A stretch of 64,000 bases of DNA from a virus. Where the stretch lies: positions 62,001 to 126,000 of IMG/VR virus record IMGVR_UViG_3300036715_003254. One strand, written 5' to 3'. The notes under the pieces were generated by a model. The model was given only the letters and a program-made list of their open reading frames with translations, was not told the DNA's origin and ran no database searches. The position numbers and the translations under genes were made by a program. Shown here piece by piece: positions 3,265-25,663 of the stretch. How positions within the stretch are numbered: position 1 is the first letter of the stretch; every line of letters begins with the position of its first letter.

Positions 3265-3432
3265 TTATTTTTCTTTTGTTATTTCTTCAGTTTCTTCTTC
3301 AATTTCTTTGTCTTTGTTTCTTTTAAACAATTTTGGTTTTTTCTTTTGGTCTTTCTTAGATGGATCTCCTGGATTAACTACATCACCAGAAACAGTTTCT
3401 TCTTGAAGTAATAAAAATTCAGACACTTTCAT
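3265..3432 (-). CDS. Small charged hypothetical protein
   Basis: A 55-residue frame whose ATG directly follows the stop of the neck gene (TAAATG), suggesting translational coupling. The N-terminus is M-K-V-S-E-F-L-L-L-Q. The rest is a run of Lys then Glu with no predicted fold. Neighbouring small genes upstream of the neck gene have similar acidic or basic tails. Function not recognised. Confidence 0.5.
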   Translation of the reverse strand: MKVSEFLLLQEETVSGDVVNPGDPSKKDQKKKPKLFKRNKDKEIEEETEEITKEK

Positions 3433-4182
3433 TTATACCACCGTTATACCTGTTGGACAGCCGTAAAGTTTAGTTAGATCTTCATCAAGCTTACTTAGCG
3501 CTTCTTTAGCATCAGATATCATTCTATTGTATTCTATTTTAGAGCCGGAAACCAAACTTGCATCGTATTTACCTAGATTTGTTCCTTGTTGTAATAGAGC
3601 AAGATTATGTGCATAATTTTTTACCCAAGTATGATTATAAATGTCGTCTATATCTCCAGGAGTATACTGTAAAGCTAGATGTAAAAGTATATTTGGATAA
3701 CCTTGACTATAAACATCTTCTAGGAAATTTATTTCTTTATTAAAGGAATTCCAAGAATAGTTTGGACATCTTCTGAAAAATCTCATAATATGTTCATATT
3801 GAGCCATCATAGAGTAGACTTGAGTAATATCTATTTGGTACGATTGTCCCTGAGGATTGAAACCGAACATTTGAAACACAAAATCTGATTGAATAACAGT
3901 TCTATCTGGCATAGTGAACATAGAAGCGTTACCGACATAGATATTAAGCAAGGCTAGTGTTTTGTCAGGAAGTTTATACTTTCTAACTCCTTGTTGAACA
4001 GGAAGGAGATACACATCTTCTGTGTATCCCTCATAAGCAAAAGTGGTGAATTTGTTTATAGCTTCATTAATACAATCGGAAAGTTGAGATTCAGTTAACT
4101 CAACAGATATTATACCATCACCAAGTTTTCTTTTGATATATTTTTTAAGATCTACTTCCGATTGTATTTTTGAAAATGCCAT
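3433..4182 (-). CDS. 13: Neck / head completion protein gp13-like
   Basis: 249 residues. The N-terminal stretch D-L-K-K-Y-I-K-R-K-L-G-D-G-I-I-S-V-E-L-T-E-x-Q-L near 11-34 is the signature I associate with T4 gp13-family neck proteins, which join the filled head to the tail. The middle contains hydrophobic strands and the C-terminal part is helical. The length is less than T4 gp13 (309). It follows the small 99-residue gene with a 1-base overlap and is followed immediately by a 55-residue ORF, so these genes form one operon. Confidence 0.65.
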   Translation of the reverse strand: MAFSKIQSEVDLKKYIKRKLGDGIISVELTESQLSDCINEAINKFTTFAYEGYTEDVYLLPVQQGVRKYKLPDKTLALLNIYVGNASMFTMPDRTVIQSDFVFQMFGFNPQGQSYQIDITQVYSMMAQYEHIMRFFRRCPNYSWNSFNKEINFLEDVYSQGYPNILLHLALQYTPGDIDDIYNHTWVKNYAHNLALLQQGTNLGKYDASLVSGSKIEYNRMISDAKEALSKLDEDLTKLYGCPTGITVV

Positions 4183-4481
4183 TATTTTCTACCTTTTCTA
4201 CCTTTTGTTTCTTCGACAGCTTCTTCAGTAACAGTAATATCAGAAGATTCGTCTTTAAGAATTTCTTCGTCATTTTCTACAAATTTTTCAGTAACGGTTT
4301 CTTTTATTTCTTTAACAGCTTCTTCTACTTTTGTTTCAGCCGTTTCAACAAAACCTTCTACTTTCTCGAAAAAACTTGAAAAAACCTCTGTAAATGGAGA
4401 CTTAACATAAAGTTCTCCAGCTTTTATTTCTTGTGAAATGTGACCAATCGAAATGACTCTATCTACTAGCGCCTTATACAT
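4182..4481 (-). CDS. Small acidic hypothetical protein of the neck operon
   Basis: 99 residues. The first 30 residues contain I-K-A-G-E-L-Y-V-K-S-P-F-T-E-V, similar in style to V-G-E-K-I-Y-I-Q-A-P-F-S-E-P in the 134-residue protein at 4592-4996, so the two may be distant paralogues. The rest is a low-complexity Glu, Lys, Thr and Val helix ending K-G-R-K-G-R-K. Its start overlaps a 36-residue ORF and has AGAGGAG upstream. Function unknown. Confidence 0.55.
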   Translation of the reverse strand: MYKALVDRVISIGHISQEIKAGELYVKSPFTEVFSSFFEKVEGFVETAETKVEEAVKEIKETVTEKFVENDEEILKDESSDITVTEEAVEETKGRKGRK

Positions 4482-4591: not shown

Positions 4592-4996
4592 TCAATTACC
4601 TTTTTTGATTTTTGAGTTTCCTGATTGTTTTTGTTCTCCAATTTCACTCCTTTCGTCGTTATTATTTATTTCATTAATTACGACTTCTGGTTCTGAAATT
4701 ATAGTTTCTGGTTTAGAAACAACTTCTTGTTCAGAAGTAGCAGTTTCTGGTTCTGAAATTATAGTTTCTGGTTTAGAAACAACTTCTTGTTCAGAAGTAG
4801 CAACTTCTGTTTCAGAAATTATAACCTTTGGTTCAGAAAAAGGAGCTTGAATATAAATTTTCTCGCCAACACAAAAGAAATTGTCTTTATAGATTCTAGT
4901 AATAACAGATTCTTCGACTAGAGAATCTTTTTTAAAGTCATATCTTCTTCCTTCGTGAACGATTATTTTGTTTTTCAATACTTTGAAAAGTTTCAT
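4592..4996 (-). CDS. Hypothetical protein with 20-residue Ser/Glu/Pro repeats
   Basis: 134 residues. The first 55 form a small compact domain ending I-Y-I-Q-A-P-F-S-E-P. It is followed by two near-identical 20-residue repeats of type S-E-P-E-T-x-x-S-E-Q-E-V-V-S-K-P-E-T-I-I encoded by the tandem DNA repeat at 4681-4800, then a polar tail. It lies between the giant NHL gene and the neck genes. Probably a virion accessory protein, but function is not recognised. Confidence 0.55.
   Translation of the reverse strand: MKLFKVLKNKIIVHEGRRYDFKKDSLVEESVITRIYKDNFFCVGEKIYIQAPFSEPKVIISETEVATSEQEVVSKPETIISEPETATSEQEVVSKPETIISEPEVVINEINNNDERSEIGEQKQSGNSKIKKGN
4681..4800. repeat. Two tandem 60-bp repeats inside a coding region
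   Basis: Units 4681-4740 and 4741-4800 differ only in the first few bases. A third, degenerate unit continues to about 4843. In frame, so copy number can change without breaking the gene. Confidence 0.85.
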
Positions 4997-5039: not shown

Positions 5040-8000
5040 TTAGTAATCACCACCGAATACTGTAACAGCTATCGGAGAATTTGGACCATATGATGTAGCA
5101 GTACCAAGAGTAGCATAAACTCTCATACCACTATCAAGAGAAAGATTTGGATAATAGAAGAACTCACTTTGAGCGCCTGTCTCTGTAGTTGATATAGAAG
5201 GAACAGAGATTTCCGCTATCATTGAGTTGTTTTCTTTTATCTTGACATCTCCACCATTATTCAAGAAGAACCTTACTACTGTTGAACCTGTAGTAGATGT
5301 AGGTCTGACTTTGAATGTATCTAGTCTAGAACCATAAGGACCAGCAGCATAAACAAGTTTCATAGTATCATCAGAGTAACCTGCTATACCGAAATTGCTA
5401 CCAGCTAGAGTAGAAACTTTTCCTGTTGTCAAATCGATTTTTCTTACTTTATGATATTGTGAATCAAGAATAAAGAGTGCGTTTCTTGAAGCGCTATATT
5501 TAATATCAGCAATAGAACCGAATAGAGCAGCAGAAAGACCACCACTACCATCAACAAAACCAGATTGACCAAAAGGATTTCCTGCAAAGTAAGCAGATAT
5601 TCCTGTAGCATCATCGACAGTTTTAATTTTTGTTACATCTGAGACATACCAAGTTGAACCGACTTTTGTCATACCTATTGGTGTAGACTGATAAGTCGCT
5701 TTTTTACCCATACAATTTCCAGGATAAGAACCGACACCAAGTTCCATTGTGAGAGTTTTACTAGAAATATCTACTTTTGAAACATAAGCTGAGTTTCCTA
5801 TTAGGAATTGAGTTGGACTAATCCAAGTAATTTGACTATGAATTGTCAAATTCAATGGAACTTGAGCAATATTACCTATACCGTAACTGTTTGACTTACC
5901 ACTAGTATTTACTAGTGTAGAAACAAGACCGCTTTGAATATCCATAACTCTTATTTTTGAATATCCAACATCAACTATATAAAGGTTTTCTTTAGACGCA
6001 TCAAGAGAAAGTTTAGCTGGATTATAGAAACTTGCTGAAGTTCCATTTCCATCTAAGAACCCTTGTCCGCTACCTGCTATAGTTGTAGTATAACCATTAT
6101 ATGGATTTACTTTTCTTATTCTGTAACCTGAATAATCAGCTACATACAAGAAGTTACCATCGAAAGCTATACCTGCAGGATAGTTGAATTTCGATTTTGG
6201 ACCATCAGAAGCAATACCCCAACCAGTACCATCACTAGAAGATCCAGATGTATCACCAGCAATAGTAGTTAAGAAACCTGTTGAAAGTTTCATTTTTCTA
6301 ATAACATTGTTACCGCTATCAGCTATAAACATATTTCCGTTGCCATCAAGAACAAATTGTCTTGGATTATTCATTCTTGCTATAAGGTTTACACCATCAG
6401 CATAACCAGAGTTACCTGTACCTGCCCAAGTTTGAACCATAACATTAAGTTGAGGATATACTCTTCTTATTTTATAGTTAGATTGGTCAGCAACATATAG
6501 ACTAGTTCCGTCAGCAGTACAAACAATACCTCTCGGATAGTTGAATTTAGTTGAAGTATTATAACCGTCAACGTTACCTGGATATGTTGTATCAGAAGTT
6601 GAGTTATTAGGTGGAGTACCAGCAATAAGAAGTACTGTACAAGTATCTATGTCAATTCTTCTAATAACGTGGTTACTGTATTCTGCAACATAAAGCTCTC
6701 TGTTATTTGATACACAAATGCCCCAAGGATTGTTAAATCTAGTATTGGCTTGACCAGTACCATCTATATAACCTTTTGTACCGTCACCAGCAAATACAGA
6801 AACTCTCTTATCAGACAAGCCGTATTTTCTAATTCTATGACCGCTGTATTCTGTAACATAAAGGTTACCTTCAAATTCTACCATATGCATTGGACCATTA
6901 ATAGCTGCAGAGTCACCGATACCGTCAACAGTAGAAGCTGAACCGTTTCCGAAAAGTGTACCGACTTTACCAGTGGCTTTGTCGATATATCTTACCCTAT
7001 TGTTATTAGTATCAGCTACATAAATTGTAGATTTATCGCTTGACCAAGCTAGACCATTAGGATTGTTAAACATAGCTTCACTAGGTTTACCATCAGCAAA
7101 ACCAGCAACACCTTTACCAGCAAATGTTGTTATTTGTCCGTTAGATATTTTTCTAATTCTGTTATTTGAACTATCAGCAACATAAATATCGCCATTTGTG
7201 TCGACTACTATACCCATTGGATAGTTAAACATACCGACTGCGGCCTTTCCTTCAGTATAACCAGAATAACCTGAACCTGCAACAACAGAAGTCAGTTTTG
7301 TGGTTTCGTCATATACTCTTACTTTATAGTTTGCATAATCAGCAAAATAAACTTTTCCAGATTTATAGAAAGGAGTTAGAACGCCGTTTCCTACTCTTGT
7401 AAAGTTTCCGTAAGTGTCATTTGAACCAGAAGTACCATCACCCAGAACAGTATCAACTAGATTAGTTGAAATGTCGAGTCTTCTCATTCTAGCGTCGCCT
7501 GAGTTCCAGTTACCTATATAAAGTTTTGAACCATCTTCGCTTAGAGATAGGTATGAAGGATATGTAATCAATGGTCTTAGTCTTACGCCGTCGTTAGATG
7601 CTCCAGAACCAGAGTATTTTGTACCACCAGCATAAGTCTCAACATAATAAGAGTTAACATCAAAAGATCTAACAGTTGTAACTGCTGTAGAGATGTTTGA
7701 GTTTGTAAAGTAAATCAACTTATCATTTGAGTCATAAATTGCTCCAGGAATATGTGCGATTGTAAACGATCCGTATTGTCCGTCAGTTGAACCATAAGAG
7801 TTAGAAGAGTTAATTGTTTGACAATCGTCAGTAGCGAAGCTTATTCTTCTAACATAAGGTTGTCCGAAGAACCACACTGTGTTCGCATCTTCCCATACAA
7901 TATTAGAAATACTATCATTGTATGTACCTGTTTCAGAGAATGTAGTTTTATAAGCTGGACAGTTAGAAGCTGAACCAGAAGCTCCGTGTGTTCCAAGGAA

Positions 8001-11000
8001 TTGACTAAATTCACCTGTTGTAGTATCGTATTTTGTGATAGTATAATTTGCTCTATTATAAGCGTAGATATTGCCATCAAGACCAACAGAGAAATAACCA
8101 GAAGAAAGACCGAATGAACCTAAAGCTGTTTTAGAGCTTGTCATTTTTGCTGGTGATGTAGAATACGAATCAGCAAATGATGAGATAATTGTTGAAACAA
8201 AGTTTTTACTAATATCGTATTTCACAAGTCCAAGGCTTGAAGCAGTAATAGCTAGGAATTTATCTTTGTCAATACTGCAAAGTTTACCTATACCTGTAGC
8301 AGTAACATAATCTACGTGACCTGTTTGAGAAGAAACTCCTGAACCTGTATAAGAGAATACTTGTGGATATGGAAGGAAGCCAAGATCAATTACTCTTACT
8401 ACATTGTTTCCTGTATCAGAAACATAAACTTTTTTGTTTTTAGAGTCAACAATGATACCGTTCATAGTTGATGAGAATCTAGAAGAAAGTAGATTTCCAT
8501 TTATTACAGAACCGTTACCACTACCAGCAATTGTAATTACTTGTTGAGTAGCTTCATTGTATTTTCTAACAGCAGCATTACTATCGCCTGAAGAATAAGC
8601 TGTAAACCAAAGATCTTGATTTGTAGCATCATAAGCCATAGCCATAACAGTACCAACAGAAGCGTTTATACCTTCACCTGTACCCATTGAAGTTTGACCA
8701 TTACCACAAGCTATTGAAACAATTCCTGTAGCTAGATCTATTCTTCTGATTACATTGTTTCCAGCATCAGCAACATATAGACAGTTAGCTCCGGAAGAGT
8801 AAACTATGTCATTAAGTGTAGTACTGAATGTAGCATTTGCTCCAGTGCCGTTTTCAAAACCAGTCATTACTGAACCGGCTATTGTGGTAACAATACCGTT
8901 TTGAGTGATTTTTCTTACAGTAGAAGAGTCACAAACATAGAAATTTGTGCCATCAGTTGTAATTCCAGTAATAGATGTGAATGTAGGCGGAATAGACAAA
9001 TAACCAACTTCAGATGTTGCTGTATATGATGATGTAGATGAACCCATTCCTAGTAGAATAACTCTATTATCTGAAGAAGAAAGAAGTATTAAGCTATCTA
9101 CTATACCTGCTGTATCAAGATTATTTCCTTGAATATAACTTACAGTATTGTTAGAAATAATAGCAAAGAAAACTAAAGCCGATGCTTTACCATTTCCTGT
9201 TTGTCCACCAACAAGAACTACATAACCGTTAGAAAGAACTAAAGATTTATGATAAGCCATAGTGTACGGAAGGTTTGTTACTGATGTCCAGTTAATAGTA
9301 TCACTTCCTAAAACACCTATATAAGCTTCACTTTGGCAGTTACCAGAGTACATACCGCCTGTAACAAAAATTCTACCGTCAGGAAGAGTAATAGCAGATT
9401 TACCTGTGACGCCTCCGCCAGAGTTAGGAAGAGCGCTAAACAATGATCCCCAAGAAACATCACTACCAGTATATTTACCTATAACAGAGCTTTTGCTTGA
9501 CAAGTAAACAACATTTGAACCTGATACAACAAGAAGACCGTCAGCTGTACCATTAGGACAAGCTGAAATAGATGTCCAAGTAATTTTATTATCGCTAGAA
9601 ACAGTACCTATATAAGAACCGCAAGCAGTTTTATTACTTGAATCAGTATAACCGCCTAGTACTATAATTTTTCCATCAGGAAGAGTAGCTACACTGTGTT
9701 CAATTACACCAGCTTCAGGGAAGTCAGTTGAAGCAACCCAAGTAGTACTATTACCAGAAACAGTTCCTATTTTAACAGTTTTTATACCGTTAGTACCGTC
9801 AGTTGAACCGCCTATTGAAACAATTCTGCCATCAGGAAGTTTAGTTGTTTTCGCTGGATAATTTGAGAATGTGTCATAATTATCAGTAGGAGTTACTAGA
9901 TTGATTTGAGCACCATCTTGTAGACCGCTTAGAGCACTACCAGCAAGAATACTAATATCACCTGTTGCTTGATTCCAAAGTTTTACAGATCTAACATCAG
10001 CTATAGCAGTCACATTTTTAGAAATGAAAGATAATCCTCTTAAAGCTGATTGGAAAGTAGGAATACTTGCTGTAGGACTATAGTATCCGTAGCAGTCATT
10101 TTGTGTATTATTGTATGATAGTTGAACAGCTGAACCAGTAGAAGTATCAACAACTCTGAATGTATCGTGAGTTTGTACATATATCTTACCGGCTGAATAA
10201 ACCATTGAGTTCTTAGTACCAGCAGTGTAGTAATTATTTGAACTTGCTGTTGAGCTACAAGTATTTGTAGTTTGTGTACTAGTATTATAAGAACCAGAAA
10301 GTGTAGATTCTGTTGTCCAACCTGTACCAGAGTATTTCAAAATACAGTTAGCAGAAAGAGTGAAAACATTTGTTCCGTCTGTACAAACTGAGAACATAGG
10401 TTTTGTAGAAATAGTTGATACAGTACCATCAGAAGCTATTCTTCTTAGACCGTTTTTATTATCAGCTACAAATACATCTCCGCCTATTTTACAAATATTG
10501 TTACCGTTTAGAGGAAGTTGTCCTGTAGCATTATAACTACTGAATACTGCTTGTTGACCATACTTACCATCTAGACTTCCAGGTTGAGCAAAAATACTAC
10601 CTGTTACGTGTGATACAAAGCCTGTAGAAGGATTTATTTTTCTAACTCTGTGGTTATAAGCATCACCAACATAAACTGTACCATCAGAAGCACAAGCAAC
10701 ACCTATAGGACTGTTAAACGCTGCAAGTTTTCTTATACCATCAGCAGAACCATAAGTACCATTTATACCTGCGTATGTTTCGACGTCGCCAGAAGTCAAA
10801 TCCATTCTTCTAATTACGTGGTTTGTAGTATCAGCCATAAACAAGTATTGACCTGTAGAATCAACAAATAGAGAATAAACTGAACCTATAAGAGCGTTAT
10901 AAGAACCACCTCCTGGACCTTGACCATCTTGGTTACCAGCAGAAGATTGTGAGCTAGTATTACCAGCTATTGTCACAACATTTCCAGCATTTCCGGAAGC

Positions 11001-14000
11001 ATCCAAAGGAATTCTTCTTATCAAATAGTTACCACCGTCAGCAACATATAAGTTTGCTTCATTTGCGTCAACAGCAATGTCATAAACAGCTTTAAATCTA
11101 GCAGTAGCTGTAGGAGCTCCATCTGCATAACCAGAAGAGTTATATGAACCAGCTATTGTAGTAACATTTGGATTATTTGGAAGACCTGTTATTTTTCTTA
11201 CTGTATAACCACCGCTATCAACAAAGTAGAATACACCAGAAGCACCAAGACAACCACCTGAAGGGTTATTACAAGTAGCGTTAGATCCTGCTCCGTCTGC
11301 ACCACCAGCTGTACCAACATTCGCTCCAGAAGCACCAGCAATTGTTGAAGTTGAATAAGAGTTATTTATAGCCGCAGATCTAATTCTGTTACCAGCAGCT
11401 TCACAAATATACATAGTCGAATTGTCTGGAGTAAGAATAACATCAGTCGGACCATTCAATCTTGAAGAACCTTGACTACCATCAGCATAACCAGCTGTAG
11501 CGTTTGGAGCAGCAGCACCAACAACAGTAGTAGTAGCACCAGTAGCTATAGTTACCTTTCTAATTGCGTGGTTACCTGTATCAGCAACATATAGATAATT
11601 TCCGTCGTTTGTTACTGCTACACCTTGAGGACCATTAAATGCTGAACCAGCACCGTTAGTACCATCAGTAAAACCAGAAGTACCAGTACCAGAAATAGTA
11701 GAAACAGCGCCTGTACTCATATCAATTTTTCTAATTTTGTGGTTACTAGAGTCGGCTACATAAAGTATACTACCGTATTGAGCAATACCTTTATGGCTGT
11801 TAAATGACGCCGGAGTACCAGATGAATATCCTTGGAAGTTTCCTGAAGATCCAGAAGTAAGACCAGAATATGTAGAAACTTGACCTGTAGCAATTACAAT
11901 TCTTCTGATTGCGTTATTTCCTGTATCAGCAACTAGTAGAGAATCTGAAAGTGGACCTTGACCTAGACAAATTTGTTTAGGTGAATTAAATTTTGCTGAA
12001 GTAGAGTTACCATCAACAAAACCACTAGCTCCACCAGCAAGAGTTTCAACCCTAGCAGTAGCAACATCTATTTTTCTAATCGCATTGTTTCCGCTATCAG
12101 TAACATAAAGAGTATTAAAGTCTTTTGAGAAACATAGAGCAACAGGAGTATTAAATGAAGCGTTTAGACCTTCACCATTAACAAAACCGCTAGAACCTGT
12201 ACCAGCAAAAGTTATAGTATTACCTGTAGCTAATTCTACTCTTCTTATTTTGTTATTGGCAGTATCAGCAACATACATATATTTAGAAGCTGAATCAACA
12301 ACAACATTATATGGAGAGTTAAATGACGCTTGAATTCCAACAGCAGGACCATCAGCAAAACCAGAAGCACCTGAACCAGCAACAGAAGTTATAATACCAG
12401 TTTTATTATCTAGTTTTCTTACTTTATTTCCATCTGTAAAATAAACTGCATTATTTGCTTCGTCTAGATAACAGAAATTTGGAGAAGCAAGAATAGCTTG
12501 AGAATATTGACCAACACCATCCATAGAACCAGTGTTACCGGTTCCAACAATAGTTGAAAGAGCGTAACCTGAAGTTGAAACTCTTCTGATTTTATTTGAT
12601 TTTGTATCAGCAACATAGATATAATCAGCAGTTGGAGATACACAAAGACCTAGAGGACCATTAAGAGTACCATTAGTACCTGTACTGTTATCAGTAGAAC
12701 CAGCAGAACCAGAACCAGCAATTGTATAAACAGCACCAGTTTGAGTCATAATTTTTCTGATTTTATTATTACCTGTATCAGTAACATATAGTATATTACC
12801 AGATTTATCACAAGTAATATCTGTAGGTGAATAGAAGCTAGCATTTAGACCTGTACCGTCAGTACCACCTATTGCACCAGAAGGAGAACCAGCAAGAGTT
12901 GTAGTAGCACCATTTAGTGGATTTACTTTTCTAATTCTTTGGTTACCTGTATCAGCAACATATAGATATTGGTCGTCACAAGTAATGCCTGTTGGTTGGA
13001 AGAATGAAACAGCGCTTCCAGTGTTACCATCAACATTATATTGAGGTCTGTTTATACCTGCATTATCTTGATTTAATTGAGAAACAGCATTTAGACCAGT
13101 ACCAGCTACAGTAGCAACCACCCATTGTGAAAGAGTAGAGTTATAAGTTAGACTTCTAATTTTGTTTGAGTTAGTATCTGCAACATATAGAACGCCGTTT
13201 AGTTGAGTAATACCTTGAGGATAGTTAAATGTAGCAGAAAGACCATTTCCATCAAGAGAAGAATTATCTCCAGAACCAGCGATTGTAGTAACAGTATTAT
13301 TACTCAAATCTATTTGTCTAATCATATTATTACCAGTATCAGCAACAAATAGTTTTGTATTAGTTTGGTCTAGACAAATACCTTTAGGAAGGTTAAATGT
13401 TGCGCTTGTACCAGCTCCGTTTAGAGAACCGAATTGTCCTGTACCAGCAATAGTAGAAACCACACCAGTAGCAATATCGTATTTTCTTATTTTGTTGTTT
13501 TTAGTATCAGTAAAGTATACTGTAGTACCATCAGAACATACGCCTCTAGGTTCATTAACTTCTGAAGCCATAAAGTAACCAGCACCATCAGAGTAAGAAG
13601 CATTTCCATCTCCAGCCATAGTAGAAATGAAGAAGTTATTATTTAGCTCAAGTCTTCTTATTGCGTGGTTTGTTGTATCTGAGAAATATAGACAGTTTGA
13701 AGTTGCATCATATTCCATATGTGAAATGACACCAAAACTTGCTGCCATACCAAAGCCGTCAGTAAGATTTGAGTTTCCGTTTCCGGCTATCAACATAATA
13801 GTATTTGTTATTGGGTCATATCTTTTGATTTTATATGTGTTAGCATCAGCTATATAGTAATATCTACCATCATAAGCCGTAGCAGATACTAGACCAAAAG
13901 AAGCAGAATAAGGAATAGAAATACCATCTCCATAAGAAACTATACCAGCACCAGCAAGAAGATTTACTTCTTTTGTTAGAGTATTAATAGCTCTTATTTT

Positions 14001-15677
14001 TGAGTTTCCTGTATCAGCAACAAATGCAGTTTTACTGTCTTGAGATACAAAAATATCAAAAGGATTGAAGAATGTTGCTAGAACACCTATACCATCAGTA
14101 GAACCAGCAGTACCTGAACCATAAACTGAGAAAACAGTATTACTTCTAAGGTCTATTACTCTTATTTTGTTGTTATTGACATCAGCAACATAAAGTTGTT
14201 CAAATCCGTCAAAAGCTATTCCTGAAGGATAGTTAAATGTAGCAGCATTTACTGGACCATCATAAGAACCAGCAGAACCTGTACCAGCAACAGTAGTTAC
14301 GCCGAAATTTGCTGATTTTAGATCTATCTTTCTAATTTTGTTAGCAGAAGCATCAGCAACAAAAAGGAATTGATTTGTTTCGTCTAATGCTAGAGAAGTC
14401 AATTGACTGAATGTAGCATTTAGACCTTTTTCAGAGTCTGTAGATCCGAATGTTCCAACAACACCAGCTATAGTAGAAACAACATTATTAGTAAGATCTA
14501 TTCTTCTTACAACATTGTTATTTTGGTCAGCAACATAAGCCATATTTGTTGTTTTATCTATACAGATATCAACAGGACTAGCAAATTGAGCTGAAGCAAT
14601 ATCTCCGTCAAGATAACCAGCAGAAGAAATACCTGCTACAGTAGTAGCTGAGCCATCAGCAACACTTACTTTTCTTATACAGTTATTACCCATATCAGCA
14701 ACATAAATGAAACCTGAATAGTAGAATAGTCCTCTAGGTTGATTGAATTTAACCTTTGAAGCGATTCCATCAACATATCCTGGAGTTCCACCAATACCGC
14801 AAAGAGTAATAGTTTTATTATTTGTTTGGTCTATTTTTCTTATACAGTGATTAGCTGTATCAGCAACATAAACATAAGTACCATCGTATGTTACACCTTT
14901 CGGAGTATTAAACATAGCTATTTTTTGATCACCTATATCAGTGTCACAGAAAATAGATGTTTGTGAAATATTTCCAGAGAATGGTCTTACTTCTCCTGTA
15001 GCAACAATATATTTTACTATTGTTCCGACTTGAGTTATATAAAGATCTGTACCATCAGTAGTAACATATCTTGGAGAGTTAAGTTGAGCATTAGTACCAA
15101 ATCCAGGTTTAAAACCAGCATTTCCAGAACCAGCAAGAGTTAAAACTTCAAGAGTAGTAAGGTCAAGAACTCTTAGTTTATGTTGTGCTTGTTGAACAAA
15201 GTAAAGTTTTCCATTCAAATAAGTTATACTTACACCAGATTGAATAGTAGCTGATATTCCTATACCATCTTGAGAACTAGAAGAACCAGAACCAGCAAGA
15301 GTAATTACCTCTCTACTATTTAAATCAATTTGTCTGATTCTACAACCAGCATTTTCTATAACATACAGTTTGTCTGTACCGTTTGTTGTTATACCATAAG
15401 GGTTGTTGAATGAAGCATTTATTCCGAAACCGTCTATTGAAGCATTAGAACCAGAGCCGAAATATGTTTCAGTCATTCCAGTATCCATATCAACAGTTCT
15501 AATTCTGTGGTTATTAGAATCCGCAATGTACAATTTATTACCAACAATTACTTGAGCTGTTGGAGTATTAAAAAGTGCAGTTGCAAAAGAACCATCTTTA
15601 TTAGTGTTAGCTGAATAAAGATTGTTTACTGTTGATTTTGGAACTGAAGGAAAAATTGGAGCAGTGTTTGCACTCAT
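5040..15677 (-). CDS. Giant NHL-repeat virion protein, 3545 residues
   Basis: Residues ~30-3430 consist of dozens of units of about 55-60 residues with the NHL signature (Y-V-A-D-T-x-N-N-x-I-R-x-I-D, then T-x-A-G-x-G, F-N-x-P-x-G-I), enough for around ten beta-propellers. A segment near residues 1620-1900 has Kelch-like units (L-P-D-G-R-I, G-G). The first ~29 residues (T-A-P-I-F, then S-A-N-T-N-x-D-G) and the last ~105 (A-G-P-Y-G-S-R to V-F-G-G-D-Y) together look like one small virion domain seen alone in other phages, so the propellers appear inserted into it. It is probably a tail fibre or capsid surface adhesin. It starts at ATG 15677 after AGGAG. No signal peptide or catalytic motif is seen. 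Confidence 0.75.
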   Translation of the reverse strand: MSANTAPIFPSVPKSTVNNLYSANTNKDGSFATALFNTPTAQVIVGNKLYIADSNNHRIRTVDMDTGMTETYFGSGSNASIDGFGINASFNNPYGITTNGTDKLYVIENAGCRIRQIDLNSREVITLAGSGSSSSQDGIGISATIQSGVSITYLNGKLYFVQQAQHKLRVLDLTTLEVLTLAGSGNAGFKPGFGTNAQLNSPRYVTTDGTDLYITQVGTIVKYIVATGEVRPFSGNISQTSIFCDTDIGDQKIAMFNTPKGVTYDGTYVYVADTANHCIRKIDQTNNKTITLCGIGGTPGYVDGIASKVKFNQPRGLFYYSGFIYVADMGNNCIRKVSVADGSATTVAGISSAGYLDGDIASAQFASPVDICIDKTTNMAYVADQNNNVVRRIDLTNNVVSTIAGVVGTFGSTDSEKGLNATFSQLTSLALDETNQFLFVADASANKIRKIDLKSANFGVTTVAGTGSAGSYDGPVNAATFNYPSGIAFDGFEQLYVADVNNNKIRVIDLRSNTVFSVYGSGTAGSTDGIGVLATFFNPFDIFVSQDSKTAFVADTGNSKIRAINTLTKEVNLLAGAGIVSYGDGISIPYSASFGLVSATAYDGRYYYIADANTYKIKRYDPITNTIMLIAGNGNSNLTDGFGMAASFGVISHMEYDATSNCLYFSDTTNHAIRRLELNNNFFISTMAGDGNASYSDGAGYFMASEVNEPRGVCSDGTTVYFTDTKNNKIRKYDIATGVVSTIAGTGQFGSLNGAGTSATFNLPKGICLDQTNTKLFVADTGNNMIRQIDLSNNTVTTIAGSGDNSSLDGNGLSATFNYPQGITQLNGVLYVADTNSNKIRSLTYNSTLSQWVVATVAGTGLNAVSQLNQDNAGINRPQYNVDGNTGSAVSFFQPTGITCDDQYLYVADTGNQRIRKVNPLNGATTTLAGSPSGAIGGTDGTGLNASFYSPTDITCDKSGNILYVTDTGNNKIRKIMTQTGAVYTIAGSGSAGSTDNSTGTNGTLNGPLGLCVSPTADYIYVADTKSNKIRRVSTSGYALSTIVGTGNTGSMDGVGQYSQAILASPNFCYLDEANNAVYFTDGNKVRKLDNKTGIITSVAGSGASGFADGPAVGIQASFNSPYNVVVDSASKYMYVADTANNKIRRVELATGNTITFAGTGSSGFVNGEGLNASFNTPVALCFSKDFNTLYVTDSGNNAIRKIDVATARVETLAGGASGFVDGNSTSAKFNSPKQICLGQGPLSDSLLVADTGNNAIRRIVIATGQVSTYSGLTSGSSGNFQGYSSGTPASFNSHKGIAQYGSILYVADSSNHKIRKIDMSTGAVSTISGTGTSGFTDGTNGAGSAFNGPQGVAVTNDGNYLYVADTGNHAIRKVTIATGATTTVVGAAAPNATAGYADGSQGSSRLNGPTDVILTPDNSTMYICEAAGNRIRSAAINNSYSTSTIAGASGANVGTAGGADGAGSNATCNNPSGGCLGASGVFYFVDSGGYTVRKITGLPNNPNVTTIAGSYNSSGYADGAPTATARFKAVYDIAVDANEANLYVADGGNYLIRRIPLDASGNAGNVVTIAGNTSSQSSAGNQDGQGPGGGSYNALIGSVYSLFVDSTGQYLFMADTTNHVIRRMDLTSGDVETYAGINGTYGSADGIRKLAAFNSPIGVACASDGTVYVGDAYNHRVRKINPSTGFVSHVTGSIFAQPGSLDGKYGQQAVFSSYNATGQLPLNGNNICKIGGDVFVADNKNGLRRIASDGTVSTISTKPMFSVCTDGTNVFTLSANCILKYSGTGWTTESTLSGSYNTSTQTTNTCSSTASSNNYYTAGTKNSMVYSAGKIYVQTHDTFRVVDTSTGSAVQLSYNNTQNDCYGYYSPTASIPTFQSALRGLSFISKNVTAIADVRSVKLWNQATGDISILAGSALSGLQDGAQINLVTPTDNYDTFSNYPAKTTKLPDGRIVSIGGSTDGTNGIKTVKIGTVSGNSTTWVASTDFPEAGVIEHSVATLPDGKIIVLGGYTDSSNKTACGSYIGTVSSDNKITWTSISACPNGTADGLLVVSGSNVVYLSSKSSVIGKYTGSDVSWGSLFSALPNSGGGVTGKSAITLPDGRIFVTGGMYSGNCQSEAYIGVLGSDTINWTSVTNLPYTMAYHKSLVLSNGYVVLVGGQTGNGKASALVFFAIISNNTVSYIQGNNLDTAGIVDSLILLSSSDNRVILLGMGSSTSSYTATSEVGYLSIPPTFTSITGITTDGTNFYVCDSSTVRKITQNGIVTTIAGSVMTGFENGTGANATFSTTLNDIVYSSGANCLYVADAGNNVIRRIDLATGIVSIACGNGQTSMGTGEGINASVGTVMAMAYDATNQDLWFTAYSSGDSNAAVRKYNEATQQVITIAGSGNGSVINGNLLSSRFSSTMNGIIVDSKNKKVYVSDTGNNVVRVIDLGFLPYPQVFSYTGSGVSSQTGHVDYVTATGIGKLCSIDKDKFLAITASSLGLVKYDISKNFVSTIISSFADSYSTSPAKMTSSKTALGSFGLSSGYFSVGLDGNIYAYNRANYTITKYDTTTGEFSQFLGTHGASGSASNCPAYKTTFSETGTYNDSISNIVWEDANTVWFFGQPYVRRISFATDDCQTINSSNSYGSTDGQYGSFTIAHIPGAIYDSNDKLIYFTNSNISTAVTTVRSFDVNSYYVETYAGGTKYSGSGASNDGVRLRPLITYPSYLSLSEDGSKLYIGNWNSGDARMRRLDISTNLVDTVLGDGTSGSNDTYGNFTRVGNGVLTPFYKSGKVYFADYANYKVRVYDETTKLTSVVAGSGYSGYTEGKAAVGMFNYPMGIVVDTNGDIYVADSSNNRIRKISNGQITTFAGKGVAGFADGKPSEAMFNNPNGLAWSSDKSTIYVADTNNNRVRYIDKATGKVGTLFGNGSASTVDGIGDSAAINGPMHMVEFEGNLYVTEYSGHRIRKYGLSDKRVSVFAGDGTKGYIDGTGQANTRFNNPWGICVSNNRELYVAEYSNHVIRRIDIDTCTVLLIAGTPPNNSTSDTTYPGNVDGYNTSTKFNYPRGIVCTADGTSLYVADQSNYKIRRVYPQLNVMVQTWAGTGNSGYADGVNLIARMNNPRQFVLDGNGNMFIADSGNNVIRKMKLSTGFLTTIAGDTSGSSSDGTGWGIASDGPKSKFNYPAGIAFDGNFLYVADYSGYRIRKVNPYNGYTTTIAGSGQGFLDGNGTSASFYNPAKLSLDASKENLYIVDVGYSKIRVMDIQSGLVSTLVNTSGKSNSYGIGNIAQVPLNLTIHSQITWISPTQFLIGNSAYVSKVDISSKTLTMELGVGSYPGNCMGKKATYQSTPIGMTKVGSTWYVSDVTKIKTVDDATGISAYFAGNPFGQSGFVDGSGGLSAALFGSIADIKYSASRNALFILDSQYHKVRKIDLTTGKVSTLAGSNFGIAGYSDDTMKLVYAAGPYGSRLDTFKVRPTSTTGSTVVRFFLNNGGDVKIKENNSMIAEISVPSISTTETGAQSEFFYYPNLSLDSGMRVYATLGTATSYGPNSPIAVTVFGGDY

Positions 15678-15703
15678 ATATATTTTTCTCCTATAAAGTT
15701 AAG

Positions 15704-16114
15704 TTAAAAACCACCATAATTGGTAGCAAGAAGTTTGTTTACCGTCATTGAACTGTTTACAACATTTTGATACTCTTCTCCAAGACCTATTTTCTCCCAT
15801 TCGTTTTTATTCAATACATTTAGTGTAGTATTAGTAGAATTGATTTTTTTATAAATCGCTCCATCAAAGACTACTAGAGTATTTACTCTATAAAATGTAT
15901 TTGGTTTAAAAAATGGGATAGAAGTTTGAATAAAAGAAGTACCAGCATCAATTGCGTCGCCTAAAGTAGTGTCACCATTTAGACCAGCGTTTGAAATTTT
16001 TTGATAAGTACAGCCTGACGATACAACAAATATCAACTTACCATTAGGAATTTTATTAATTCCTGTTTCAGTATGATCTTTGAGATACCAAATTGGTTCT
16101 ACATTGTATGTCAT
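15704..16114 (-). CDS. Short tail fibre-type protein with shared N-terminal module
   Basis: 136 residues. Residues 1-60 (Y-N-x-x-P-I-W-Y at 3-10, T-G-I-N-K-I-P near 17-23, K-L-I) match the N-termini of the fibre proteins at 16662-17774 and 20333-21757, so this is probably a virion attachment module. The C-terminal half contains a V-F-D-G-A-I-Y-K-K-I segment like carbohydrate-binding repeats. It has a conserved leader hairpin (16138-16181) and a late-type box. It lies 26 bases upstream of the giant NHL gene and is probably co-transcribed with it. Confidence 0.6.
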   Translation of the reverse strand: MTYNVEPIWYLKDHTETGINKIPNGKLIFVVSSGCTYQKISNAGLNGDTTLGDAIDAGTSFIQTSIPFFKPNTFYRVNTLVVFDGAIYKKINSTNTTLNVLNKNEWEKIGLGEEYQNVVNSSMTVNKLLATNYGGF

Positions 16115-16661: not shown

Positions 16662-17774
16662 TTAAAATATACTTTCTATTGCTATTTCATCACCTTTAGA
16701 TAGAGCATCATTGAATGTTAAAGTAGTTCCATCTACAGACCAGTTTGAAGAAGCAAATCTAATACCGTTTTTATACACTACAAAATAAGAACCTTTTGGT
16801 CCATTTAGAGTGACTTTAGTTTGTCCATCGTCGGCTACTAATTCTTGAATATACGTAGGTATTGTACCGCCTGCAGTTATTAGACCTTTGCTGTTGACTG
16901 TAACTGAAGTATAAGTACCGGCTGTAACCACATTAGGTAGTGTAGCTGTAGCGCTAATATCACTTGAACCGTCAAAGGCCGGTGTAGTAAAGGAAATATC
17001 GCCAGTAACAGTTAAAACTCTACCAGTAGCCAATTTAGTCGCAGGAGTACTAGAAATAGCGCTAGTAACAAATTTTGTGGTGGCAATTTGATCTGTATTT
17101 GTTCCCGAATCGGCAGTTGGTGCAGTTGGTGTTCCTGTTAGAGCAGGAGACGCCAATGGAGCTTTAGTACCAACAACAGCAGTTAAAGCAGCGGCAGCTG
17201 ACTCATCATTTGCTAGTTGGTCGGCTATTTCTTTTAGTGTATCTAGTGTTGCCGGTGCGGAATTTACTAGATTAGCAATTGCTGTATCTGTATAAGACTT
17301 AGATGATGCTAATGTAGAAGTATCTTTACCATCTACTTCAGTTTTAGTATAAGCATCAGTAATACCGTAACCAGCAATAGTTGTAGGTTTATTTAGTATT
17401 TGAGCCGCACCACTAGATGCAGTCCAATCAGAGCTTACTTGCGGTCTAGCATTATAGAAAGGTTGAGAACTTATCCAAGTTTTTGTGTCAGCGATAGCAC
17501 CAGTAACGAAAGCTGTAGTAGCGATTTGGTCTGTATTTGTTCCAGCTGGAGCAGTTGGAGCGGTAGGAGTGTCGCCGCCAGCAATACATTTAAAAACGCT
17601 TGAGTTATTTATAACATCAGATATTTTAGTATCAGCTGTTATATTATCGTTACTTATTTTTGTAAAGAATTGTTTAGTACTCTGAATGTATATTAGTTTA
17701 AGCAGAGGTACTTTGTTTATACCTGTTTGATTTACATCATTAAAATACCAAACTGGCGATAAATTGTAAGACAT
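16662..17774 (-). CDS. Tail fibre protein with repeated T-P-T-A-P / A-T-T-x-F-V units
   Basis: 370 residues. Residues 1-62 carry the shared attachment module (Y-N-x-S-P-V-W-Y, T-G-I-N-K-V-P). Then come two copies of the fibre motif T-N-T-D-Q-I-A-T-T-x-F-V (near 80 and 225) separated by a helical Y-T-K-T-E-V-D region, as in many phage fibres. The C-terminal ~55 residues (T-K-V-T-L-N-G-P-K-G to the end) are a receptor-binding-tip-type domain. It has its own promoter box (17835-17842) and terminator. Probably a trimeric fibre. Confidence 0.7.
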   Translation of the reverse strand: MSYNLSPVWYFNDVNQTGINKVPLLKLIYIQSTKQFFTKISNDNITADTKISDVINNSSVFKCIAGGDTPTAPTAPAGTNTDQIATTAFVTGAIADTKTWISSQPFYNARPQVSSDWTASSGAAQILNKPTTIAGYGITDAYTKTEVDGKDTSTLASSKSYTDTAIANLVNSAPATLDTLKEIADQLANDESAAAALTAVVGTKAPLASPALTGTPTAPTADSGTNTDQIATTKFVTSAISSTPATKLATGRVLTVTGDISFTTPAFDGSSDISATATLPNVVTAGTYTSVTVNSKGLITAGGTIPTYIQELVADDGQTKVTLNGPKGSYFVVYKNGIRFASSNWSVDGTTLTFNDALSKGDEIAIESIF

Positions 17775-20332: not shown

Positions 20333-21757
20333 CTATGCAAGCGATACTTCGTATGCAGTTAATGCTCTATCATAAATTCGCAAATTTGTAATATGACCAT
20401 ACCAAAGTCTTCCTATCATAATACTAGAAGCAGTATCGCCTAAGTCGTTATATTGTTGTAATCTAGATTCTTTAGCCAATAATACTCCATTTTTGTAAAT
20501 ACTAGTTTGATTGTTTTTACTATCAGAAATTGCACAAATCCTTTTAGTAACAGTATCAAATGGAATATATGTATAAGCCAGCATATTAGTATTTTTACCA
20601 CCGTGACAATGAAAATCAGTACCATCTCCGTAGCCAAATATCAACGCGCCGTCGCCATTACTATTAATTGCGATTATAGAGCTCCAATCGCCGTCTTTTT
20701 TTCCTTTTATATCAAAGTCAGCAATAACGGTTCTCGAATCATATACGGACGGAAAGTTACCTTCTAGAGTGGCACTCAACATATCAGCTGCTCTAGTAAC
20801 AGTGCTAGAAGTTGTAGAAATATAGGATGTAGTAAATGGCAACGCTTCTAATTGTGCTCCATAGATGTTTACACCATTTCCTGTTTTATCTGTCGAAGAG
20901 TAGCTGTATATAACATTAACATATTTACGGTCAGAGGTAGTGACAGTGAAAGTCATACTAAGTCTTACCCACCCATTAGCTAATATTTGTACATTTTTAT
21001 CTTGTAGGTTATTGTTTTGATCTGTTAAAACTCCTGTGTCGAAGTTATAACTCAAATCACGTGAAGTACCGTCTGAGAAGAAAAATGACGGATACATTAT
21101 TCTTATTATAGAGTCTTCTGCTTTTTGAGCAAATATAGAAGCAGTATATGTTGTCCCAGCAGTTAACGAAAAATATGAAATATATATATTTTCCTCTGAC
21201 CCAGTTGTAGTTTTATAAAAATGATAAGCAGAGTTTGCTACACCGTCAGGACCAGTAACATTTTGAGTAATAGCAGAATTTTGAGTACTCCATTGTTCGA
21301 ATTGGTTTGAATAAGAAAATAGATTCGTACTATTACCTTCGTTCAAATAACCTTCTTTTTCAAATCTAGGTACATCTATACCAGCTGTTTTTAGAACACC
21401 ATATCTATCTATATAAGTAGCAGTTGAAGCTCTTGAGAATGTAACACTACCTGTACCAGACCTCATAGCCAAAGAGTTTTTTAGTGGAAGATCTAGCAAA
21501 GGATTATGGATATTACCAATAGCCATTTGAAGATCAGAATTGTTAGCTTTTAGGTCAACTTCTGCTGCATTCTTAAAATTACTCGGATTTCTTAAAAGGT
21601 CAGTTACAGTAGAAGTACTTGTTAAACCGTCATTACTTAACTTTTTAAACATTTTTCCAGTACTTTGGATATGTATTAACCTGTTTAGAGGCACTTTGTC
21701 AATGCCAGTTTGATTTACATCAGAAAATTCCCAAATGGGAGATTTGTTATATGCCAT
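20333..21757 (-). CDS. Tail fibre protein with C-terminal LamG-like domain
   Basis: 474 residues from the ATG at 21757, chosen because AGGAAGG sits 9 bases upstream. An upstream in-frame start at 21805 would read through the leader hairpin. Residues 1-65 are the shared attachment module (A-Y-N-K-S-P-I-W-E-F, T-G-I-D-K-V-P). The middle has jelly-roll-like strands and V-T-R-A-A-D-M near 315. The last ~150 residues look like a concanavalin/LamG sugar-binding fold ending in L-R-I-Y-D-R-A-L-T. Likely host recognition. Its promoter box and leader hairpin are shared in type with the 136-residue gene. Confidence 0.7.
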   Translation of the reverse strand: MAYNKSPIWEFSDVNQTGIDKVPLNRLIHIQSTGKMFKKLSNDGLTSTSTVTDLLRNPSNFKNAAEVDLKANNSDLQMAIGNIHNPLLDLPLKNSLAMRSGTGSVTFSRASTATYIDRYGVLKTAGIDVPRFEKEGYLNEGNSTNLFSYSNQFEQWSTQNSAITQNVTGPDGVANSAYHFYKTTTGSEENIYISYFSLTAGTTYTASIFAQKAEDSIIRIMYPSFFFSDGTSRDLSYNFDTGVLTDQNNNLQDKNVQILANGWVRLSMTFTVTTSDRKYVNVIYSYSSTDKTGNGVNIYGAQLEALPFTTSYISTTSSTVTRAADMLSATLEGNFPSVYDSRTVIADFDIKGKKDGDWSSIIAINSNGDGALIFGYGDGTDFHCHGGKNTNMLAYTYIPFDTVTKRICAISDSKNNQTSIYKNGVLLAKESRLQQYNDLGDTASSIMIGRLWYGHITNLRIYDRALTAYEVSLA

Positions 21758-21781
21758 TTTATTTCCTTCCTCAAAAATTTT

Positions 21782-21828
21782 TCGCGTCGCGACTTGGTAT
21801 GTCACATTCCGTGAGGAATTTTACGCGA
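21782..21828 (-). ncRNA. Conserved leader hairpin, copy 2
   Basis: A 47-base element like 16138-16181. The outer stem is TCGCGT with ACGCGA, the inner stem TTCC/GGAA, and the central single-stranded part (TGTGACATACCAAGT) is identical to copy 1. It lies between the promoter box and the ribosome site of the LamG-type fibre gene. The compensated stem changes support a structured RNA. Confidence 0.55.
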
Positions 21829-21965: not shown

Positions 21966-23441
21966 ATGGCTACTATGCTTTCTCCTGGTGTTTATACACA
22001 CGAAATTGATATGAGCATAATTGTACCGTCAGTATCTTCTGCTACTGGTGCATTTGCTGGGTTATTTAAAAGAGGTCAAGTTGGTGTATACAAACTTGTT
22101 TCTTCTGTTGACGATTTGATATCTAATTACGGTGAACCTACAGATTCAAATTATAATGACTGGTTCCAATGCTATTCGTTCCTTCTTTACGGAAGCTCTC
22201 TTCTTGTTTCTAGAGCAATCGATAGTAATGGATCACTAGTTTCAACCACTTCAACAGTAACAGATGCTGCTGCTTCTGGTTCAAAAACTGTTTCAATAGA
22301 CCATATTACTAATTTTTCTGAAGGTGATAAAATTGTTTTTAACGGCGATAGAACTCACATCTATACAATAGACAAAGTAAATTCTTCAAGTGTTGATCTT
22401 GTAGAAACTCTTGCTACTGCTGTTGATAAGAATTCTCTTGTAGAAAAATTTGTTAAAGCTACAAACGCAGCTGTTGAAGCCAAAAAAGTAGGTGGCACTG
22501 CTCCGTATGCGCTAGCTCTTAAAAAACTTGGAATATTTGTTCCAAATTCTCAATACTTTGAAGATTTTAACGCTAGTTTTGGTGTTACCGATGCTAATAA
22601 TGTTGCTCTTCAATTTATAGCGAAAGATCCAGGCGAATTTGGTAACAATATCACTATCTCTATCGGTAATACAGCTGATTTCACTAATGGTTCTACTTCT
22701 CAAGCTCTTCCTGGAGTTCTTTTCAGTCAACTATTTGACAGATATCCTACAACTACTGAAATAGCTATCGTTATTTCTGTTGGTGGCGTTATGGTAGAGA
22801 AATTTATTGTTTCTCTTGTTCCAGGAACAAAAGACTATACAAATAGATCTACTTACATCGAAGATGTACTAAACAGACAGTCTAACTATGTGTATGTGGT
22901 TCACAACAAATTAACAACTACTGTTGCTTCTGCGCTAGCTAACGATTCTACAACTCTTAAACTTGCTTATGGTAATTCTGGTCTTCCAAATACTGATGAC
23001 ATAGAAGTAGCATATGATGTATTCTCTAATAAAGAAGAAGTTGATGTAGATATAGTTATAGCTAATGAACAAGCGCATCTTGCGGCGGCTACTCTTGCTA
23101 TGAATAGAGCTGACTGTATATGCTATGTAGGCGCAAAATATGAGAATGTAATCGGTCTTAAATCTTCAGACATTGTTGCTAAACAAATAGCATATATAAA
23201 CGATTCAAATTCGCCAATGAACCTAAACACTTCATTTGTTGCGTTCTATGATAATTACACACAATTCTATGATAAATGGAATGATAAGTTAAGATGGTGT
23301 AATGTTGCTGGTCTTATTGCTGGCGCAAGAGCTAAAACTTCTTATAACTTATCAGAGTCTGAGGCTTCTGCAGGTCTTATTAATGGCGTGCTAAAAGGTA
23401 TAACAAAGCTTTACTACAGTCCAAACTCGGGGCAAAGAGAT
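21966..23441 (+). CDS. 18: Tail sheath protein gp18, exon 1
   Basis: The first 492 codons of the sheath gene. The start M-A-T-M-L-S-P-G-V-Y-T-H-E-I-D and the S-x-x-x-G-A-F-A-G-L-F-K-R-G segment are typical of T4-family sheath proteins, which contract to drive the tube into the cell. The frame continues to a stop at 23477, but family conservation ends at S-P-N-S-G-Q-R-D. Joining GAT (ending 23441) to CTT at 25209 restores Q-R-D-L-L-Y-K-S-R-V-N-P-V-V-N-F, the expected sheath sequence. The spliced protein has 630 residues, close to T4 gp18 (659). Confidence 0.85.
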
Positions 23442-23561
23442 TGGTGTGCCCGTTTAAAAAGAATAATAAATAACTGAAAGGTTATATAAAACACACAGAC
23501 CTAAAACTTCGGAACTTTTAGGTCTATTTCATAACCTTTAATTAAAATTAAAGGCACTTCA

Positions 23562-24722
23562 ATGAAACAACTTCAACAAGACATCCAAAACTATCTAAAC
23601 AAATTCGGAAACGATGCTCTTACCTCAAACGCTCTCGTTATAAAAAGAAGAAAAGACGACATTATAAATTTCACTAGTTTTCTTCCGGAAGATACAAAAA
23701 TGATGGAAAGAGTTTATATCATTTTCCACGAAATTAAATTAGAAGACCTAGCATGTAAAATATGTGGAAAGAAAAGAAAATTTCGTTCATTCGTGAAAGG
23801 CTTTAACAAAACTTGTGGAAATGGTTCTTGTAACTCAGCTTATGGTTCATTATACTCTACAGATCAAACTAAAAGAGTAGCAAAAATGAATGAAACAAAA
23901 AGTCTTCATACAGAAGAACGAAGAAAAGAAATAAGACAAAAATGTGATCAAACAAAAAGAGAAAGATACGGTGAAGATTATCGTAGATTAGAAGGATTAA
24001 AGGGTTATAAAAATGCTTTAGAAAGAGGAACTTTCTATTCTCCATTCCAAGAATGGTCTAATACAAATAATAAAGAAAAAATCAAAGAAACACATTTAAA
24101 AGCTGCAAAAACACTTAAAAGTAAAATTGATGAAAATGGATTAGATCATTATGATAGAATTCATCAGAGGAAACTAAATGATATAGATAAAAATGGATTA
24201 GATCATTACAACAGAATTCATCAGAGGAAACTGAATGATATAGATGAAAATGGACTAAATTACTATCAAAGACTACATATAAAAAGATTGAACGATATAG
24301 ACGAAAACGGACTAAATTACTATCAAAGACTACATATAAAAAGATTGAACGATATAGACGAAAACGGATTAAATTTCTACCAAAGACAAACTGAAGCACA
24401 ATATAATTCTGGAAGATTTACTAGACCAGAAGATAAAGACGATTTTCAACATTACAGATACAAAGTTTATAAATGTATGAAAAAATTCGATGAGCAGATA
24501 AAGAAGCTTCCGGATTATGATTTAAGAGGACATGCAAATAAAGCAGGTTCATACCATCTAGACCATAAATTTTCAATACACGAAGGCTTTAAAAACTGTG
24601 TTCCGCCATACATCATAGGTAATATAGCTAATCTTGAAATGATTTCTGCTAGAAACAATCTATCTAAAAATAGAGCTTGTTCGATTGATCTTGATACTTT
24701 AATAAACAACCTAGTCTGGTAA
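23562..24722 (+). CDS. Intron-encoded HNH homing endonuclease
   Basis: 386 residues. A zinc-ribbon-like C-K-I-C-G and C-G-N-G-S-C near 65-90 is followed by a basic helical region and five 19-20-residue repeats (near 186-275, D-E-N-G-L-N-Y-Y-Q-R-L). The C-terminal HNH motif (Y-H-L-D-H-K-F-S-I-H-E-G near 328-339, then N-L-E-M-I-S and N-L-S-K-N) is the likely nuclease. It lies wholly inside the sheath intron and would cut intronless alleles, as T4 intron endonucleases do. The ribosome site is AAAGGCACTTCAATG. Confidence 0.8.
   Translation: MKQLQQDIQNYLNKFGNDALTSNALVIKRRKDDIINFTSFLPEDTKMMERVYIIFHEIKLEDLACKICGKKRKFRSFVKGFNKTCGNGSCNSAYGSLYSTDQTKRVAKMNETKSLHTEERRKEIRQKCDQTKRERYGEDYRRLEGLKGYKNALERGTFYSPFQEWSNTNNKEKIKETHLKAAKTLKSKIDENGLDHYDRIHQRKLNDIDKNGLDHYNRIHQRKLNDIDENGLNYYQRLHIKRLNDIDENGLNYYQRLHIKRLNDIDENGLNFYQRQTEAQYNSGRFTRPEDKDDFQHYRYKVYKCMKKFDEQIKKLPDYDLRGHANKAGSYHLDHKFSIHEGFKNCVPPYIIGNIANLEMISARNNLSKNRACSIDLDTLINNLVW
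24118..24380. repeat. Tandem 57-60-bp coding repeats in HNH gene
   Basis: About four to five direct repeats encode I-D-E-N-G-L-x-x-Y-x-R-x-H-x-x-R-L-N-D. Two neighbouring units (from about 24250 and 24307) are identical or nearly so, indicating recent duplication. Confidence 0.8.
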
Positions 24723-25208
24723 AAACAGACTAGGCTTCCTAAATAGTTACATCTAATGAAACTGAAAACTAAAAGCAAATATATTCTCTTAAACCTATAT
24801 CACAAAAACAACCAAAATAAATAATCTGTGTGTTTTTATATTAAACACTTACTGTTCCGAAGGCAGTAATGTTCTTATTCTTTTTATTGTTATAAAAAGG
24901 TCTCGCCATATAGTGATATATGGAAAAATTAATCTATCTAATTGCTGGAAAATCCTTAGAGTCTATTCAACTACAAAGTAAGATGAAAATCTAAGCTTGA
25001 ATGTTTAAAAATGAATAGAATTGGACAATCAGCAGCCAAGCTACTTTAAAATGTAGAAGGTTCAACGACTAGAACGAAAGTTCGTACACTCGAGTGAGTG
25101 GAAATGGTAGACATCTAGAAATAGATGAAGATATAGTCTAATCTTATAGGAAACTATAAGCAGCAGTAAATGCGGTATTTGTGTAACGAACAAATGCGAA
25201 TATAAAAG

Positions 25209-25630: not shown

Positions 25631-25663
25631 AAAGCTATAAGTCAATTAAGACTTATAGCTTTT
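25631..25663. terminator. Bidirectional terminator between sheath and HNH genes
   Basis: A 13-bp stem (25631-25643 with 25650-25662), A-run on one side and T-run on the other. It serves the convergent genes on both strands. The HNH stop codon lies in the loop. Confidence 0.8.

Follow-up and report, generated by a model that had tools for sequence, protein, structure and literature searches.

A single gene that takes up 16.6% of the analyzed DNA raises the question of how a phage might mount a very large array of propeller domains. The gene lies on the minus strand at positions 5040-15677 of the window, by which we mean the entire 64,000-nucleotide stretch under analysis (bases 62001-126000 of a virus record totaling 138,481 bp), and it comprises a single intact frame of 3,545 amino acids. 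The first-pass annotation had assigned one sixth of the window to this gene, which the measured share bears out, and had proposed that the ends of the protein are two halves of one small stand-alone phage domain separated by NHL propeller units. The relevant features are as follows, with the evidence for each in parentheses.

5040..15677, minus strand: split-domain propeller protein, single ORF, 3,545 aa (frame; identical copy in second record)
15688..15692, minus strand: AGGAG Shine-Dalgarno sequence, ~10 nt 5' of the ATG (printed sequence)
15591..15677, minus strand: host-domain segment at the N-terminus, aa 1-29, which lines up with the first strand in the stand-alone family (N-part profile; family model E12-21)
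5397..15602, minus strand: propeller array, aa 26-3427, with 54 NHL blades by our assignment and the Kelch insert (Pfam NHL; blade profile; AlphaFold2 model of aa 1-691; Foldseek)
9897..9935, minus strand: NHL blade 34, first piece, aa 1915-1927 (joined-blade score)
9003..9896, minus strand: Kelch-like propeller, aa ~1928-2225, nested inside NHL blade 34 (Pfam Glyoxal_oxid_N and Kelch_6; solved Kelch chains)
8877..9002, minus strand: NHL blade 34, second piece, aa 2226-2267 (blade profile)
5043..5390, minus strand: host-domain segment at the C-terminus, aa ~3430-3545, covering strands 2-8 and ending in GGDY (C-part profile)

Integrity of the propeller gene

The propeller gene uses codons much as the other phage genes do (cosine 0.973), and a second IMG/VR record contains the whole gene. 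Because the two records are 100% identical across >30 kb, the second is probably the same virus rather than an independent line, and it supports the assembly weakly because reads of the two records may be shared. This circumstance leaves a little room for an assembly chimera, which, along with a chance likeness of the protein ends, we consider extremely improbable. The frame is open throughout, codon use is uniform, the whole gene is present in two records, and the N-end score described below lies far beyond those of shuffled sequences. TRF detected no DNA-level tandem array in the gene and therefore no sign of recent duplication, and no reverse transcriptase (DGR test) was found in the 138-kb record.

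The two ends match parts of one small domain

When residues 1-29 were joined to the last 105 residues of the protein, the resulting sequence matched 135-aa stand-alone Rhodobacter phage proteins (E 2e-12, 98% query coverage) and also Pam2 gp55. With the array skipped in this manner, the matches to RcMamaDuck gp24 (Rhodobacter phage) and Pam2 gp55 (Pseudanabaena phage) are full length, at 34% and 27% identity, respectively. A profile was also built from 98 stand-alone homologues only, with the window protein excluded, and was cut at the DG turn. Its N-part matched aa 3-29 in the full protein at 27.7 bits (E 1.3e-10) and the isolated N-terminal 40-mer at 37.5 bits, whereas the best of 5,000 shuffles scored 12.8 bits. 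Chance resemblance of the ends is refuted by this difference. Other controls scored lower still, with maxima of 7.0 among 610 array segments and 5.2 among the N-termini of 84 other ORFs. The C-part matched aa 3438-3545 at 59.9 bits (E 1.1e-20). Thus, the proposal that the ends belong to one domain strongly passed these homologue tests, including the HMM search with the end regions that had been suggested as a check.

Residues 3-29 and 3438-3545 match family positions 1-27 and 30-129 in the same order and nearly without gaps. Given this coverage, the alignment indicates that the domain has been split at a single place with almost nothing lost. The contiguous ~130-aa form seen in the RcMamaDuck gp24 and Pam2 gp55 family is absent from the window protein, where ~3,400 residues separate strands 1 and 2. 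By homology, then, the window protein harbors a divided copy of the domain and does not count as a stand-alone family member. The strand-1 motif of the RcMamaDuck gp24-like domain (PIF..P......ANT..DG) is present at the N-end, and the C-end carries the R.F.NNG..NN..E body and the GGDY terminus.

These conserved residues also bear on whether the ends are vestigial, with the propeller gene having interrupted a stand-alone gene whose sandwich no longer forms. In favor of this, the gene comes from just one known lineage, which precludes measuring selection on the ends. Still, we regard this reading as very unlikely because the N-part retains P, ANT, and DG and the C-part retains R-F-L-NNG, NN, and GGDY, both halves have diverged to an extent that is ordinary for the family (~35-40% identity), and the frame stays open through 3,545 codons.

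Structure prediction offers an indirect view of whether the ends fold independently, an outcome that the first-pass annotation had named as evidence against its proposal. In an AlphaFold2 model of aa 1-691, which includes part of the array but not the C-end, residues 1-33 form no strand and have a pLDDT of ~30, although the underlying alignment had only four rows, none of which covers the N-end as a family. The equivalent residues in the family model (residues 12-21) form a strand at pLDDT 92-94. From this difference, the models suggest that the N-end does not fold without the C-end, which is what a split domain predicts, short of proof. At the joint, the first NHL blade sets out from the NKDG turn belonging to the host domain, and the last one passes into ...GYSDD-TMKLVYAAG, where strand 2 begins; the two DG-type turns therefore fall at the same point.

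A family of stand-alone β-sandwich proteins

Iterated profiles and collection scans recovered 256 distinct members of the end-domain family, 238 of which are contiguous stand-alone proteins. Besides the window gene, the remainder consists of ten members with an insert of 81-125 aa, one tandem duplicate, and a few whose N-end is truncated or divergent. When genome contigs were scanned, nine loci in bacterial genomes (possible prophages) turned up, all with a contiguous domain, and no second copy of the domain was found in the 138,481-bp record. Neither PHROGs nor Pfam has a model for this ~130-aa domain, and no solved structure matches the stand-alone form by sequence. It therefore represents a phage protein family that is so far unannotated and worthy of a name.

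An AlphaFold2 model of the stand-alone family (95 relatives) is an eight-stranded β-sandwich with a pLDDT of 93.1, whose strands span positions 12-21, 35-39, 44-54, 61-68, 79-87, 100-109, 114-119, and 127-135. This model places the array insertion site in the loop between strands 1 and 2, such that strand 1 would come from the N-end and strands 2-8 from the C-end. Its Foldseek neighbors are jelly-roll-like with modest TM scores, and they include the cement proteins of phages KHP40/KHP30 (TM 0.52-0.57), TNF-like proteins, and the lambda tail tip. Neighbors in the viral library are mostly uncharacterized phage proteins and parts of tail fibers.

The domain tolerates inserts, since ten distinct relatives (L061, L063, L066, L071, L076, L079, L083, L146, L149, and L150) carry a segment of 81-125 aa. 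Like the window protein, these relatives have a foreign segment within one of the domain's loops. However, theirs is a single small, non-propeller insert located in every case after model position 68, in the strand 4-5 loop, whereas the window protein carries propellers in the strand 1-2 loop and is alone in doing so among the relatives found. The position-68 inserts fall into two or more unrelated sequence types, and the three that were scanned have no Pfam match. A platform that accepts other inserts in a second loop is a candidate natural display scaffold, which can be tested directly.

The NHL array and a nested Kelch-like propeller

Pfam NHL matches the array with an E-value of 1.8e-96 and a score of 312 bits for the protein (curated cut-off of 20), and 13 single repeats exceed the cut-off on their own. 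A profile built from the protein's own blades recognized ~50 blades. By fitting weaker blades into the gaps, we assigned 54 NHL blades in aa 26-3427, four or five of which score weakly. In the AlphaFold2 model of aa 1-691, each blade has four strands, and most blades have pLDDT values of 80-95. Foldseek aligned the array model to human NHLRC2 (6g7w) with a TM score of 0.83 to the target and 2.9 Å over 350 columns.

If there are six blades per ring, then the 54 blades would form nine propellers, which, together with one Kelch propeller, fits the roughly ten propellers originally estimated. This ring number rests on the norm for the NHL family and on the model match to NHLRC2, as a six-blade period was sought in blade-to-blade similarity and was absent from the sequence. 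Likewise, the low-confidence linkers in the aa 1-691 model are not spaced every six blades.

The array is not NHL throughout. The estimate of ~3400 residues of NHL units between the ends holds for the array as a whole (aa 26-3427) but not for aa ~1928-2225, which are Kelch-like. This segment matches Kelch_6 at 33.5 bits (cut-off of 25.3) and Glyoxal_oxid_N at 39.2 bits (cut-off of 37.5) in Pfam and solved Kelch chains with E-values of 0.004-0.005, and six Kelch-like units can be counted by eye. It breaks NHL blade 34 at a DG turn of the same kind as that at the host-domain joint. When the two pieces of this blade are joined, they score 37.1 bits versus 32.2 bits for the second piece alone. The architecture thus has three levels of nesting: a Kelch propeller in an NHL blade, the blade in a propeller array, and the array in a jelly-roll.

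Phage affiliation and gene neighborhood

The tail sheath protein is nearest to those of Campylobacter phages (38%), as is the major head protein (24-26%). On the basis of these comparisons, the phage is T4-like and a distant relative of Campylobacter phages. The structural region around the propeller gene encodes tail sheath, tube, hub, neck, and head proteins. At least three fiber-like genes lie directly upstream of the propeller gene, and the tail tube and hub genes lie downstream.

Three ORFs on the minus strand (15704-16114, 16662-17774, and 20333-21805) share the N-terminal segment M.YN..PIW....QTGI.KVP....I, which is probably a common fiber anchor. The first encodes only 136 aa, and the last has a C-terminal Laminin_G_3 domain. 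The propeller protein does not carry this segment. Immediately downstream of the propeller gene, ORFs 4592-4996 and 4182-4481 (minus strand) encode two small acidic proteins, the former with SEPE(T/V)..SEQEVVSKPETI repeats whose DNA repeat is 90% identical.

The tail sheath gene (window 21966-25625, plus strand) is interrupted by a group I intron (Rfam RF00028, 24884-25160, E 9.4e-22). An intron ORF at 23562-24722 has tandem NDIDENGLNYYQR repeats and the character of a homing endonuclease, and the C-terminal sheath exon can be read at ~25206-25622 (weak Phage_sheath_1C). Adjoining this exon, ORF 25646-26734 (minus strand) has no Pfam match and contains repeated ENGL...YQR-like motifs that resemble the sheath-intron ORF.

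Stand-alone members of the end-domain family usually adjoin tail-fiber or minor-tail genes, a neighborhood they have in common with the window gene. Upstream, their neighbors match tail-fiber families, apart from a minority that match a head-decoration family; downstream, the matches are to tail-fiber assembly and minor-tail families.

A proposed adhesin and competing readings

Because the neighbors of stand-alone genes match tail-fiber families and the propeller gene lies directly downstream of fiber-like genes, we favor, with reasonable confidence, a virion-attached adhesin whose propeller array projects from one loop of a split jelly-roll domain. The architecture behind this proposal is well supported, with the frame, the homology of the split domain, the repeated blades, the insertion point, and the nested Kelch segment all observed. 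A small β-sandwich (jelly-roll-like) phage domain that is normally free-standing at ~130 aa would serve as the attachment platform, and an array of nine NHL propellers, one with a nested Kelch propeller, would sit in its strand 1-2 loop. After translation, the N-terminal strand would return to the seven C-terminal strands of the same chain to complete the sandwich. Held at both ends, the array would project as a doubled-back chain or a large loop of propeller disks, whose faces may bind ligands on the host surface through many weak contacts. The anchor could be located on the head instead of the tail, given that some upstream neighbors match a head-decoration family and that the fold resembles the KHP40/KHP30 cement proteins. 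Such an arrangement would represent a mounting route for a very large phage binding arm, namely loop insertion in a platform of ~130 residues with both ends anchored.

Completion of the sandwich might also occur between molecules. In such a donor-strand exchange, the C-terminal sandwich of each molecule would be completed by strand 1 from its neighbor, yielding a chain or ring polymer in the form of a self-linking propeller fiber. The strand that the C-terminal part lacks corresponds exactly to the N-terminal segment, a pattern shared with strand-exchange fibers, and without the C-end this segment is unfolded in the aa 1-691 model. Moreover, the halves are ~54 blades apart, and their meeting within one chain is not automatic. 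Nevertheless, loop insertions normally leave a fold intramolecular and the record lacks a second copy of the domain, and we consider exchange between molecules quite unlikely.

Propellers by themselves do not reveal function, and weak Pfam matches to SGL and lactonase point to families that include enzymes. The protein might accordingly have a lactonase-like or polysaccharide-cleaving activity, or be secreted or intracellular, rather than act as a host adhesin. We judge such a role unlikely, as NHL best accounts for the blade matches, there is no evident signal sequence, the gene sits among tail genes, and a phage tail fiber with NHL repeats has been described (PMC9723563).

Comparison with known propeller proteins

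A multidomain phage adhesin with propellers, as favored here, would be of a known kind, and the split-domain architecture is new as far as our searches reach. Our search, confined to the open-access literature, turned up no account of propellers arrayed within a split virion domain. The tail fiber noted above is that of Nitratiruptor phages NrS-2 and NrS-3, which has six NHL repeats (PMC9723563). As in the window phage, the repeats occur in a structural protein of a Campylobacterota phage, and the available text reports that their number varies (PMC9723563). In contrast, NrS-2 and NrS-3 are siphoviruses with one NHL domain, and that text describes no split-domain design (PMC9723563).

Human NHLRC2, plant SOQ1, and teneurin-type NHL proteins share blade sequence and predicted fold with the array, but these are single six-bladed propellers in cellular proteins, whereas the window protein is viral and has ~54 blades. 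The LRP2 and LRP6 receptors, which gave the top Foldseek E-values, resemble the window protein in carrying several propellers serially in one chain. However, these are YWTD propellers of animal receptors, and no relationship to the array is claimed.

The end domain is absent from all other viral NHL proteins that we inspected, which include those of five virus contigs (L153-L157) and of gut "phage" scaffolds. Most of the L153-L157 proteins have collagen repeats, and they appear giant-virus-like by eye. Contigs L153, L154, L156, and L157 encode collagen-repeat proteins with NHL propellers, mostly of six blades each, and L154 has an additional 1,641-aa frame with 30 blades. The gut scaffolds (MT835956.1, MT837514.1, and MT835609.1) are unverified "Bacteriophage sp." entries with NHL ORFs. 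Those of MT835956.1 and MT835609.1 resemble bacterial lipoproteins, and these scaffolds may therefore be bacterial DNA.
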